64,000 bases of DNA from Raphanus sativus (taxonomy: Eukaryota; Streptophyta; Magnoliopsida; Brassicales; Brassicaceae): assembly GCF_000801105.2 (NCBI RefSeq), contig NC_079518.1:27074800-27138799 (forward strand), read 5' to 3'. Within the stretch, counting starts at the first letter, position 1; each line of letters starts with the position of its first letter. The notes beneath the pieces were generated by a model, which searched no databases, was not told the origin of the DNA, and saw only the letters and a list, made by a program, of their open reading frames with translations. A program made the translations under genes and the position numbers. This document shows positions 59,738 to 63,348 of this stretch, in pieces.

Positions 59738-59854
59738 GGGCATCCGCAACGCTGGATGGTAAGGCATTTCTTAGCTCTAATTCTTAGACAAACTGATTAA
59801 AAAAAATATAATATTCGTGTAACTTAAGAATCAATCCTTAATTAAGAATATTAA

Positions 59855-61363
59855 GAGCATCATTAACCGGGGCGCTTAACCAAAGTGCTTAGATTAATTT
59901 TGATTAAAAAAATAAGAAAATGAAGTTTAAAGAGAAAAGTCGACGCTTAATTAAGCCACAGAAACAACGACGCTTAGGGACACGCGTCATAACGACGATG
60001 TCTCTCTCTCTCTCATCTCTTTCTCTCTTTCGTATTCTTTCTCTCATCTCTATCGCTCTCACCAAAGGAAGAAGACGAAGGAGATCGATTTCGAAGGGGG
60101 TAGGTGTGTGAGAGGACAGAGAGGGGGATCGATAAGGCGGCAGCCGATGGGGAGCTAAGAGTATTCATCGTCTCTGGCGATAACATCGGCTCTCGTCTTA
60201 TGTTCTCCCTCAAAAAGCTCTCTCCTTTACTCCTCTGTTTCCATAGTTGGAGGGTAAGCATCTGGGATTGAAGGAAACTGAAATCTCGTATATTTACTTC
60301 TAACAAAATTGTTTTTTTATACTGTAAGATTAGTGATGTGAAAATTTGTTTTTTTTTTGTTTCCCATGGAGGATTTGGCTGTAATGGGTTTGTGGGAGCT
60401 TTTGCCGCATCTTTATAAGTTCCGTGTGAGATGTTAAACTAAACTATAAGTTCCATGGAGGATTTGTCTGTAATGGATTTTGCTGTAATGGGTTTGTGGG
60501 AGCTTTTGCCGCATCTTTTGATTCTTTTATTTACTTCTCTGGTTTTGAGATTGCAGGTGAAGTTGAAGGAGACTATTGATGCTGCAGCTATGTTTAAGCC
60601 ACACGTTGTTGTGACTGTTGATTGAAAGGGCTTCTCTTTTCGTCTACTTAAAGAGTTGAGAGGTAAACAACACTAAATTATTCTTTTTACGCTTGTAAGA
60701 GAGAATCAACGAGGTTTAAGCGAACACGGTCTGTTCAATAATGCTTTGCAATGAATTGTCTCTCTTATCATATCAGTATTAGAAAAACACGATTTGTTGA
60801 ATTTTAACAAGTTTTACTCATGGTAAGCTTAATCCGACCGTAGTCTCTAGTATAATGCCCTTGTTGAAATCAAAATAATCAGCTTATTGTAAACATGATA
60901 ATTAAAATATGTAATAACATGTGACTGTTCTCGTTTTCTTCGTCTCAAGTTTTTTCAAAACTGATTCATCTTCGTGTTTCAGGGCAAGACAGAATTAAAG
61001 AATGGAGCATTGGGAGTTTTCTTGTGTCACGGAGTGGAGGAAGTCTTGTAGTTTTCTGTCTTGTTGTCTTGTAGCATTGGGAGTAAACTAATAGTTTTCT
61101 GTCGTGGAGGAAGTCTTGTAGTTTCCAGTCACGTTTGATCACACACATATTCTCTCATTCTCAACCAACTGAGATCATCTTGTTTAAACATGTTTTTCAT
61201 AAAATGTTTAATTCTTTTTTAAGAACTCTAAACTAAGCGACTTGCATTGGAGGTGGTAAATTTTAAAATCTCTTAGCTATGTCTCTTAACTCACTTTACT
61301 ACTTAAAAACTATTAAAAAAATAGCTAAGCCACTCTAATAAGAGCTTTGGGATAATGATGCTC
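59855..61363. mobile_element. Inner Pack-type PIF/Harbinger-like element carrying LpxB pieces
   Basis: TIRs GAGCATCATTAACC and (inverse) GAGCATCATTATCC, 13 of 14 identical. TAA on both sides (59852-59854 and 61364-61366). 1509 bp, no transposase. The interior is dominated by fragments of a lipid-A-disaccharide synthase gene. Near 61020-61135 a 27-bp piece (gtggaggaagtcttgtagtt) is duplicated. Confidence 0.75.
60151..60660 (+). pseudogene. Captured fragments of lipid-A-disaccharide synthase (LpxB-like)
   Basis: In order: ELRVFIVSGDNIGSRLMFSL (about 60153-60215; a few residues of the usual SGEVSGDNIGSR are missing); MEDLAVMGLWELLPHLYKFR (about 60366-60428); the same exon again, diverged and cut (about 60453-60520); then VKLKETIDAAAMFKPHVVVT (about 60558-60625) and GFSFRLLKELR after a TGA. 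These are consecutive N-terminal parts of plant mitochondrial LpxB, which joins UDP-2,3-diacylglucosamine and lipid X. Introns and duplications break the frame, and the catalytic C-terminal half is absent. Confidence 0.75.
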
Positions 61364-61559
61364 TAAGGACTAAGTCCTTAATGTGTTGGCAGCGTCTGAT
61401 TGGTGAGGCGGAAGGTTGTGTTAAAAAAAAATCATTCAGGCTGGCGATGAAAAAAAAATCTGTATGGTGAAACGAAGGCGATCCCGACTCTTCTCCAGAC
61501 TCCTCCGGCGTCTGCTTCCTCAACTCCCCAAAGCCCCAAATCGGAATCCGCCATTCTTC

Positions 61560-61672
61560 TCCCGACTCCTCCCTCTCTTTCAAGAGATTAATTCCCATCG
61601 CCACCCTCTCCACCTCTTCTCCCACCCTCGGTCTCGCCGATACGTTCACTCAGCTCAAAAAACAAGGCAAAG
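61560..61672 (+). pseudogene. Captured exon of tryptophan synthase alpha subunit
   Basis: Reads ATLSTSSPTLGLADTFTQLK KQGK and then meets a taagttcc donor-like sequence. GL.DTF..LK.QGKVA.IPY is the start of the mature TrpA/TSA1 barrel, the enzyme that releases indole from indole-3-glycerol phosphate. Upstream, Ser/Pro-rich sequence from about 61463 could be its transit peptide, but the frame is not continuous. Only this first exon is present. Confidence 0.6.
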
Positions 61673-62110
61673 TAAGTTCCTGTCTGAAATCCCAATCCTA
61701 GTGATAGCATATGGTAATGATGAGCCTTGGCTATTATTCACCGTTAGGCTTTGAGAATCAGTTGTAGAGAAATCTAAGATTTAAGATTCAGTTCTTAAAC
61801 CATTGAAAGTAGAGACAACTTTGTGATGTTAACTGCTTCATTGCTTTGATTCATCAGGGGGATGATAAAGTTGTTACCTTTATGTGTTTTAGTCAAAAAA
61901 AATACTTAAATTTTAACCATTCAATTAGAGGACTGGGTGATGTTACTGATGTTTTGATTCATCAGTGGATGATAAAGTTGTTCTCTTTATAGATATGTTT
62001 GTATGGTTTTTTTTTTATTAGGACTAAAGGCTTGAGTTTTGATGAGAGACAAGACATGTTTTGGTTCATCAAAGTTGTTTCTCTTTGTGTGTGTGCGTGT
62101 TTTTGTATCT

Positions 62111-62700
62111 AGGAGTATGCAAGGCAAGTCAAATTGCTGATCTTTTCCCAGCGGTTTCACCTGAGATCGTTGTAAGGGAAGCGAGGTTAGAGGACTGCTG
62201 GGAAATGGCAGAGACTCACTGCTGATAATGGGGTTCTCTGTTCCACCAGGGTGCCAGAGGGTCTGTTTAGTCGCTATGATAGGTAGCTCGGCAGATGAAC
62301 CCATCTGCATCGGTAGCCAAGATTTCAAGATTGGTGCTTTTGATGCAAAGATTAGTCTTAACAAAGGCGCTATGTAGCTGGGATATTAACTGTTGATACC
62401 GTCACTGATTATCTTCCAAGGAAAGGACCTCTCTGTCAGAGAAGGTTTGTTTGCTTTCTCTTCTCATATGCCTCTCTGTTCTTGAAGACTAAGGACTATT
62501 TGTTTTTTTTTTTTTGGTTTCAGGACGGGGATTGCTTACATATCAAACGTGGCGGTACGAGAGAGTTTCAGGCGCAAGGGGATAGCAAAGAGACTCGTAT
62601 GGAAAGCAGAGGCTTTACCTCAAAGTGGTCTGTTACTTACCCTTTGGGTGGGGGCTGAGGATCTGCATTGGTCAGAACTTCTCTATGCTGGAGACAAAGA
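62111..62700 (+). pseudogene. Captured fragment of a GNAT-family N-acetyltransferase
   Basis: Piece 1 (about 62111-62445) carries, over several frames, EIVVREARLEDCWEMAETHC, PPGCQRVCLVAMIGSSADEP, QDFKIGAFDAKISLNKG and GILTVDTVTDYLPRKGPL. Piece 2 (62525-62690, after a ttcag acceptor) reads RTGIAYISNVAVRESFRRKG IAKRLVWKAEALPQS. Motif A of GNAT proteins (VAVRESFRRKGIAKRL, binding acetyl-CoA) is intact, but the protein breaks off and runs into unrelated sequence (LWVGAEDLHWSELLYAGDKD). Indels break piece 1. Similar to plastid GNAT acetyltransferases as I recall them. Confidence 0.65.
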
Positions 62701-63348
62701 TGGCAATGTCATTGATTCTACAAAAGTTCTCCTTTGAGCTCTCTCCTTCTTATGTTCATGCGCCTCAGATGGTCATGATCACTCGTCCTCAATTCAGAGC
62801 CCATCTCATCCTCCACAAGCTCTGATTATTTACTGTACTGGTGATGTCATCAAGAATAAAATGTTTTATGGATGCAAAGATGGTACTTGTATATTATTTA
62901 CTTGAACGTTACTTGACTATTTGTAACTTTGCTGCTCAAAGCTATCAGTTGATGTTATGTTGCCATCATCAAGTTTACGAAGTGTAGAACAACATTTTGA
63001 ATGGAACACTCTCTTTCAAGAAATTAAATTGTGTTGTTGACTTTATTATCTTTTTGGTGTTCATATAAAAATTCCAAAGTTCTAGGAAAATTATGCATGG
63101 ATATACACATATATACACATAAAAATTCCAAAGTTCTAAAATCCAATTCAAAAAAAAAAAAAAATTCTAAGAACTCCATGATGAATAACACCATCGAAGA
63201 TACAGTTATGATTAGAATCCTCAACTATTTAATAAAAAAAAAAAAACAATATTCTAATCCTAAGGACTCCAATGGTGTTACCCACCATTGGAGGTGCTCT
63301 AACGGCTCCCATAATATAGGAATAGGATGAGAGGAGAGAGACAAGGGA

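Follow-up and report, generated by a model that had tools for sequence, protein, structure and literature searches.

A nest of two gene-carrying PIF/Harbinger elements, probably of the Pong subgroup, in the radish genome

Gene capture by PIF elements is known from grapevine (PMC2528002) and from maize and rice, while the latter study is reported to have detected no new Pack superfamily in Arabidopsis thaliana (PMC8903248). A model in which neighbouring insertions fuse has been described (PMC8903248), and for Pack-CACTA elements a fusion model is set out in a 2026 review (PMC13317346). Most discussion of PIF/Harbinger elements concerns their role in giving rise to small miniature inverted-repeat transposable elements (MITEs). 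Here we describe a nest of two gene-carrying elements in a 64,000-nt stretch of Raphanus sativus DNA (contig NC_079518.1, positions 27,074,800 to 27,138,799), referred to as the window, in which a route to multi-gene chimeras is open to test. It is very probable that both are Pack-type non-autonomous PIF/Harbinger transposons, most likely from the Pong subgroup, that both hold captured pieces of host genes, and that both are mosaics, which would have arisen by fusion. A first-pass annotation, made from the letters of the window, regarded gene capture as much less known for elements with short terminal inverted repeats (TIRs) that duplicate TWA at their target than for Pack-MULEs and Helitrons; that view needs qualifying, as cases from grapevine (PMC2528002) and from maize and rice (PMC8903248) were already in print.

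Limits of the two elements and their empty sites

The outer element lies at 59738..63299 on the plus strand and is 2050 bp long once its guest and the additional TAA that came with it are subtracted. Its TIRs are GGGCATCCGCAACGCTGGAT at 59738..59757 (plus strand) and GAGCACCTCCAATGGTGGGT, read on the minus strand, at 63280..63299, and a TAA target-site duplication stands at 59735..59737 and 63300..63302. The inner element, 1509 bp at 59855..61363 on the plus strand, has the TIRs GAGCATCATTAACC at 59855..59868 (plus strand) and GAGCATCATTATCC at 61350..61363 (minus strand), between TAA copies at 59852..59854 and 61364..61366. The first-pass annotation had placed the outer limits correctly, and the nesting it proposed is borne out by the two TAA pairs and by the empty sites described below. 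The inner element was inserted into the left subterminal region of the outer one. Two further combinations of ends flanked by TAA arise in the nest: the outer left end with the inner right end (59738-61363), and the inner left end with the outer right end (59855-63299).

As a control for the TIRs, all 257,476 TAA-TAA pairs in the window with a spacing of 100-5000 bp were scored over 14 positions. The inner ends, GAGCATCATTAACC and GAGCATCATTATCC, are identical at 13 of 14 positions, and only three pairs reach a score of 13 or more: the inner element itself and two AT-rich, simple pairs. Thus, the inner ends stand out from chance pairs, while the outer ends alone do not. The first-pass claim of matching TIRs and TAA on both elements therefore holds for the TAA copies and for the inner TIR, but for the outer TIR only with the help of other evidence. 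The case for the outer TIR is carried by copies of the element and by its empty site.

Homology searches were run within the same 433,372,886-bp assembly (6413 contigs). At least 53 places in the genome match the element, with 40 of 361 first-look candidates scored. Two of them, L009 and L010, are copies of the outer element, with 98% identity in the main block and 95-96% at the left end. Both contain a single TAA at the spot where the inner element sits in the window, i.e., they are empty sites of the inner element. Two further copies of the inner element, L011 and L012, are found on other scaffolds, with TTA duplications and with flanks unrelated to the window. The three inner copies vary at only 2 of 1509 positions (99.9% identity), and neither change is confined to the window copy, which points to a recent movement of the inner element.

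The empty site of the outer element was sought by using the first exon of the adjacent alanyl-tRNA synthetase gene as a genome query, which returned four places including the window. At one of these, L066 (contig C2486), both window flanks are joined by a single TAA and the whole element is absent. The left flank is 86% identical to the window over 288 bp and the right flank 94.5% over 605 bp, so L066 could represent either a diverged allele of this locus or a duplicate of it. In two weaker relatives of the synthetase gene, L067 and L068, no usable left flank was seen in the alignments examined.

A nested insertion is also present in L025 (1480-3320), where the host is an outer-type element. 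It has the opposite orientation and lies no more than about 10 bp from the spot of the inner element in the window, which suggests that the TTAA-rich subterminal palindrome is a preferred target.

Captured host genes and mosaic ends

The cargo of the nest comes from four donor genes, LpxB in the inner element and tryptophan synthase alpha (TSA), GNAT and cytochrome P450 in the outer one. The LpxB (lipid-A-disaccharide synthase) genomic fragment at 60124..60713 on the plus strand aligns with the gene-like locus L019 at 77-83% identity through exons 1-3 with their introns. Exon 2 is doubled, at 60371-60414 and 60475-60518, and the two copies are 98% alike. In L019 itself two pieces match Pfam LpxB, one of them under the curated cut-off. 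In the outer element, TSA exon 1 with the start of intron 1 (61504..61716, plus strand) is 92% identical to L020. It is followed by an acetyltransferase fragment of the GNAT family with introns (61795..62625, plus strand), which is 73-87% identical to L018, with 67 bp of the L018 sequence missing. The C-terminal end of a cytochrome P450, with stop and 3' untranslated region (UTR), at 62627..63016 on the plus strand, is 77-91% identical to the tandem P450 cluster L021, and joins the GNAT fragment directly with an overlap of about 2 bp, as judged by eye. In the outer copy L010 some 300 bp of the P450 piece (window 62726-63024) are missing, which may be a deletion or an alternative state, and a few bases overlap at the join.

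All matched pieces have one orientation. The first-pass annotation had recognised the LpxB pieces with their duplicated exon, the TSA exon, the intron-bearing GNAT fragment that follows it and the common orientation, all of which are confirmed by comparison with the loci above. It counted three host genes; the P450 fragment, which it overlooked, is the fourth. The loci L018-L021 could be the true donors or paralogs of the donors and are noted as gene-like relatives; those of all four cargo genes are located elsewhere, on other scaffolds.

Seven cargo pieces were searched against Pfam. The P450 reading at 62625-62822 matches PF00067 (E 7.2e-13) and one GNAT piece matches PF00583 (E 2.1e-4), while the other five, all short (two LpxB, one TSA and two GNAT), gave no match, so their identity rests on the DNA alignment to the gene-like loci. 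The frames are broken, as both the LpxB and the GNAT fragments contain stop codons and the P450 is joined to GNAT out of frame; therefore, a working protein is not to be expected from the fragments. Gene-like fragments such as the P450 heme region, GNAT, TSA and LpxB could, nevertheless, be mistaken for genes by annotation pipelines.

The first-pass annotation proposed a search of the same genome for copies with empty sites or other cargo. The former are L009 and L010, which lack the inner element, and the latter were found as two pairs of elements. L016/L017 (1547 bp) have the outer-type left end and the TSA exon in common with the outer element, followed by a different fragment, which we take to be from a universal-stress-protein gene and which gave no Pfam match. 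These two copies differ at 2 of 1547 positions, have TAA and TTA duplications and sit at unrelated flanks. L025/L026 (1682 bp) instead have the right end of the outer element and 52 bp of the P450 3' UTR in common with it, and carry kinesin exons (PF00225, E 1.5e-15). The P450 end is common to L022, L023, L025 and L026, while GNAT was found, among the elements compared, only in outer copies.

The inner element has two sets of relatives as well. Its right-hand block (60962..61363, plus strand), which starts just before a splice-acceptor-like CAG, is 95-96% common to L013-L015; L014/L015 have the right 402 bp of the inner element joined to other left halves. L027/L028 have the left end of the inner element; with flanks that are 100% identical, they represent a single locus that occurs twice in the assembly and is counted once. 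L013 and L022-L024 served for comparison of the right end only and do not enter the count of target-site duplications. In L023 a possible further complete element lies at 582-2468, with the ends GACCATCTCC and GAGCAGCCAC, TTA on both sides and a P450-type right end. The pair scan of ends missed it, and it was likewise left out of the count.

Comparison of the terminal segments indicates that both elements are mosaics in which the left and the right end come from different lineages. The left end of the outer element is 84% identical to L016/L017 and 58-61% to L025/L026, while its right end is 68-69% identical to L016/L017 and 80-82% to L025/L026. Similarly, the left end of the inner element is 80% identical to L027/L028 and 50-51% to L014/L015, and its right end 56% and 94-95%, respectively. 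The site patterns reverse between the ends in all five comparisons (Fisher p 2.1e-8 to 6.9e-16, e.g. 1.6e-11 and 1.4e-15); these p values have to be read with the sites not being independent and with rows that overlap in lineage, which leaves two or three independent cases rather than five. In both elements the cargo that these siblings lack (GNAT for the outer element, LpxB for the inner one) sits between the two parts shared with them.

Superfamily assignment and candidate Pong-type partners

Exact TWA duplications (TAA/TAA or TTA/TTA) were found at 12 of the 14 distinct insertions in which both ends were examined, namely the outer and inner elements, L011, L012, L014-L017, L025, L026, L027 (the same as L028) and el2. 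The other two, L009 and L010, each have a damaged end. None of the 14 has a 9-bp duplication, and the deviating ends that the first-pass annotation named as grounds for giving up its reading did not appear. Its other ground, fragments as tandem remains of real genes at this locus, was not borne out within this genome either, since the two flanks meet at one TAA in the related locus L066. The 3-bp TWA duplications are those of the PIF/Harbinger superfamily, and so are the short TIRs, with 13/14 identical positions in the inner element, 9/14 in the outer and 12/15 in the siblings L016, L017 and L026. As expected of Pack-TYPE elements, host coding fragments lie between the TIRs, no transposase is present and more than one copy exists. 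The DDE_Tnp_4/Plant_tran transposase and the Myb-like ORF1 of the superfamily are absent from both elements, and are present in elements with similar ends in the same genome. In agreement with the first-pass annotation, no match was found in the window by tblastn (E up to 1) when the queries were three proteins of the same genome, namely two transposases of Pong type and an ORF1. Its label of PIF/Harbinger-like thus agrees with the duplications and the short TIRs, but not with the TIR motif published for the PIF subgroup, G(N)5GTT (PMC2213677); the ends probably point to the Pong subgroup instead.

Autonomous partners, another search suggested by the first-pass annotation, were found as candidates only: Pong-type elements with GAGCATC-like ends and TWA duplications in the same genome. 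There are at least 150 matches to PF13359 (442 candidates) and at least 150 to PF04827 (654 candidates). Many of the 150 scored Plant_tran (PF04827) loci have open frames of 400-500 aa. Since these matches are very numerous and some have identical scores at several places, a recent amplification of Pong elements in this genome is suggested. Around the best 30 PF13359 loci, taken with 1.5 kb flanks, convincing bracketing ends were not found. One end pair at L036 and L037 (2103-2365, both on C3) was rejected as the ends of an autonomous partner, as it belongs to a 263-bp MITE-like unit with a TTA duplication and GAGCA(G/T)CTCCATC ends that adjoins a DDE_Tnp_4 gene.

Six Pong-type loci (L059-L064) were fetched, and a strict end pattern identified bracketing, TWA-flanked ends in three of them. 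L059 is a 3215 bp element with TAA duplications and ends GAGCAACATTATCGC (the two ends 14/15 identical), L060 is 3936 bp with TTA and ends GGGCAACTCCAACG (11/15), and L061 is 5345 bp with TAA and ends GACCATCATTATCAG/GAGCATCAATATTGG (11/15). By a looser pattern L063 was added, 4182 bp with TAA and GAGCATG-type ends (12/15). The strict pattern occurred in 2 of 600 Markov simulations and in 8 of 226 tiles of the window, all eight at the two known nests. The transposases of these four elements match PF04827 (E 6e-114 to 3e-108), and the ORF1-like proteins of L060 and L061 have a NAM-associated match above the cut-off. L061 (2438-7782 on C6) has open frames for the transposase (446 aa) and for ORF1 (335 aa), with a long simple-repeat stretch near one end.

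The ends of the nested elements resemble those of the Pong-type (Plant_tran) elements. The inner right end is 13/15 identical to L059, its best end match, and 12/15 to L061 and L063, and each outer end is 11/15 identical to the left end of L060. For a comparison inside the TIRs, 105 bp next to each TIR were aligned between the Pong-type ends and those of seven Pack elements, which gave 56 comparisons, each tested against 500 shuffles. The right ends of L059 and L061 against that of L027, a relative of the inner element, were equalled by 0 of 500 shuffles and aligned in or nearly in register, and the left end of L059 against that of el2 was equalled by 1 of 500; a level of 1/500 or less was reached in 3 of the 56 comparisons. 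On this basis, kinship with Pong-type elements is firm for the lineage of the inner element, while for that of the outer it rests on the short ends and the duplications. We regard the Pong-type loci as likely related partners and do not claim any of them as parent.

The window contains a second nest. An element of 1761 bp at 32319-34079, with a TTA/TTA duplication and the ends GACCACCTGCAATGG/GAGCATCCACAATGG, carries ubiquitin-protease-like exons (PF00443, E 5e-5, just under the cut-off; a second peptide had no match). It is itself nested in what looks like another member of the family, which carries pieces of other genes; the flanks of this nest extend to about 34700.

Origin of the nest and comparison with known systems

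The mosaic ends, copies in the same genome, empty sites, donor-like genes and candidate transposases are all available for this nest, which makes the capture mechanism testable. We suggest that the elements would be mobilised in trans by a Pong-type transposase and ORF1, by cut and paste. Where insertions are neighbouring or nested, the inner ends would be lost, the outermost ends would move as one unit, and the DNA between them would be trapped as cargo. TSA, common to L016/L017, and the P450 end would then be the older, flanking cargo of the outer element, and GNAT, as it was found only in outer copies, could be read as its newest cargo, in the middle; LpxB would be the middle piece of the inner element. 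Ends swapped between lineages and unshared cargo in the middle are what the fusion of neighbouring insertions predicts. A fuller reading, of which we are evenly divided for and against, is that of a still-mobile crucifer family of Pong-type Pack elements that trade halves by fusion, in which cargo accumulates from the middle so that its order records the order of capture, and of which one multi-gene unit came to lie at the start of the alanyl-tRNA synthetase gene while being absent from the related locus.

The strongest competitor, which we find possible but lean against, is that the same elements gained their cargo by gap repair after excision, with template switching from ectopic genic DNA, the swapped ends being gene conversion within the family. 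Such filler-DNA models are often proposed for Pack-MULEs. The direct GNAT-P450 join with its short overlap does resemble template switching, and the doubled LpxB exon and the 67 bp missing from GNAT suit error-prone synthesis. However, in both elements the difference in lineage lies between the two ends and is not scattered in random patches, and the cargo that siblings lack has a central place, which is what fusion would give. The exchange of halves between lineages and the location of the most recent cargo can tell the two mechanisms apart, and gap repair fits less simply than fusion of neighbouring insertions. That the unit would serve the adjacent synthetase gene, as a chimeric gene or a regulatory unit kept by selection, seems quite unlikely. 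The open frame over the first exon of this gene lies at 63349..63669 on the plus strand (Pfam tRNA-synt_2c, E 6.8e-10), with ATGs that may serve as starts 50 and 176 bp past the end of the outer element. This closeness, together with a CT-rich, 5'UTR-like stretch and the splice-acceptor-like CAG in the inner element, speaks for such a role, while the broken reading frames and the absence of the element from the related locus L066 speak against it.

It is very unlikely indeed that the nest belongs to another gene-capturing superfamily, i.e., that it is a Pack-MULE, Pack-CACTA, Pack-hAT or Helitron, even if Pack-MULEs and Pack-CACTAs are the better-known capturers (PMC8903248, PMC13317346). It is largely refuted by the TWA duplications, which at 12 of 14 insertions measure 3 bp instead of 8 or 9 bp; the ends are not CACTA, and elements with a Pong-type transposase in the same genome have similar ends. 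In particular, Pack-MULEs are distinguished by duplications of about 9 bp and long TIRs. Helitrons are not known to make a target-site duplication, while here TAA or TTA is duplicated and single in the empty sites. Hardly conceivable is the last option, that the fragments are tandem or segmental remnants of real genes that have decayed, beside chance end-like sequences. Their introns and common orientation would suit it, but L066 is precisely without the whole block and holds one TAA, L009 and L010 are precisely without the inner element, copies sit at unrelated flanks, and gene-like relatives of the cargo are on other scaffolds. Gene remains, Pack-MULE, hAT, CACTA and Helitron were thus rejected on the empty sites, the 3-bp duplications and the end sequences.

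Several observations, together with the dependence among sites in the Fisher tests, weigh against the reading of Pong-type Pack elements fused into mosaics. The outer ends, GGGCATCCGCAACG/GAGCACCTCCAATG, are identical at only 9 of 14 positions, a score equalled or exceeded by 2,622 of the 257,476 TAA-TAA pairs, so that the outer TIR is not significant by sequence alone and was rejected as a stand-alone proof. Of the outer copies, L009 shows TGA on the left side and is cut on the right, and L010 is one base short at its right end. The PIF motif is matched by neither GAGCATCATTAACC nor GGGCATCCGCAACG. Among the six Pong-type loci, L062 and L064 have no bracketing ends above chance, and the TIR identity of L060 and L061 (11/15) equals that of the best chance pair in L064 (11/15), so these two are singled out only by the end pattern. 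The ORF1 match of L063 and the Myb-like matches of L061 and L063 are below the Pfam cut-offs. Inside the TIRs, the inner element's own ends are at best equalled by 2 of 500 shuffles against Pong-type ends, 12 bp out of register, and by 7 of 500 in register, which is weak; for the outer ends the best value against the four Pong-type elements is 30 of 500, which is not significant. The parent of the outer and inner elements was not found among these four. Finally, gene conversion or template switching would be other possible sources of the mosaic structure.

Among the top titles listed in searches of the open-access literature we saw no earlier description of this family, whether by its GAGCATC ends or as Pack-PIF/Harbinger capture in Brassicaceae, and the letters GAGCA or GGGCA were not found in the available part of a study that treats 20 MITE families from Brassica. 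Among crucifer elements, the Tourist-like MITE Monkey King has a TAA duplication as well and sits in a promoter, but its consensus end is GGGC(orT)CTGACTGGTT, its core is AT-rich, and no captured host genes are reported in the text available (PMC4471910). In the Ping/Pong and mPing system of rice, two proteins mobilise the non-autonomous elements; the target-site duplications are TAA/TTA and excision is precise (PMC2836001, PMC9921582). The ends of the radish elements may also resemble that of rice Pong. Pack-CACTA elements of Arabidopsis (Catoni 2019, as cited in PMC8903248 and PMC13317346) are likewise described as hybrids of neighbouring insertions that trap genic DNA, but have CACTA ends and belong to another superfamily. 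To our knowledge, mPing holds no captured host genes.

The closest systems are those of maize, rice and grapevine. In maize and rice, the Pack-PIF elements (Gisby and Catoni 2022, PMC8903248) are non-autonomous, have mostly TTA/TAA duplications, carry host gene fragments and show evidence for the fusion of neighbours; one maize family holds two gene fragments, comparable to the multi-gene cargo here. However, the figured maize family is about 0.4-0.5 kb long, of which 163 and 58 bp derive from genes, while the radish elements are 1.5-2 kb, with multi-exon, intron-bearing pieces from up to three genes per element, occur in a crucifer genome and have ends that do not fit the PIF motif. The transduplications of grapevine Pifvine-3 similarly consist of captured exons and introns common to several copies, but there the capture is a long 5' region beside the usual ORF1 and transposase regions (PMC2528002), while the radish elements carry no transposase. 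The kind of element is thus already known from grapevine, maize and rice, and the nest is a well-documented further member of it, probably from the Pong subgroup. Beyond the first-pass annotation, the analysis adds the mosaic ends of two lineages and candidate transposase-bearing partners in the same genome.

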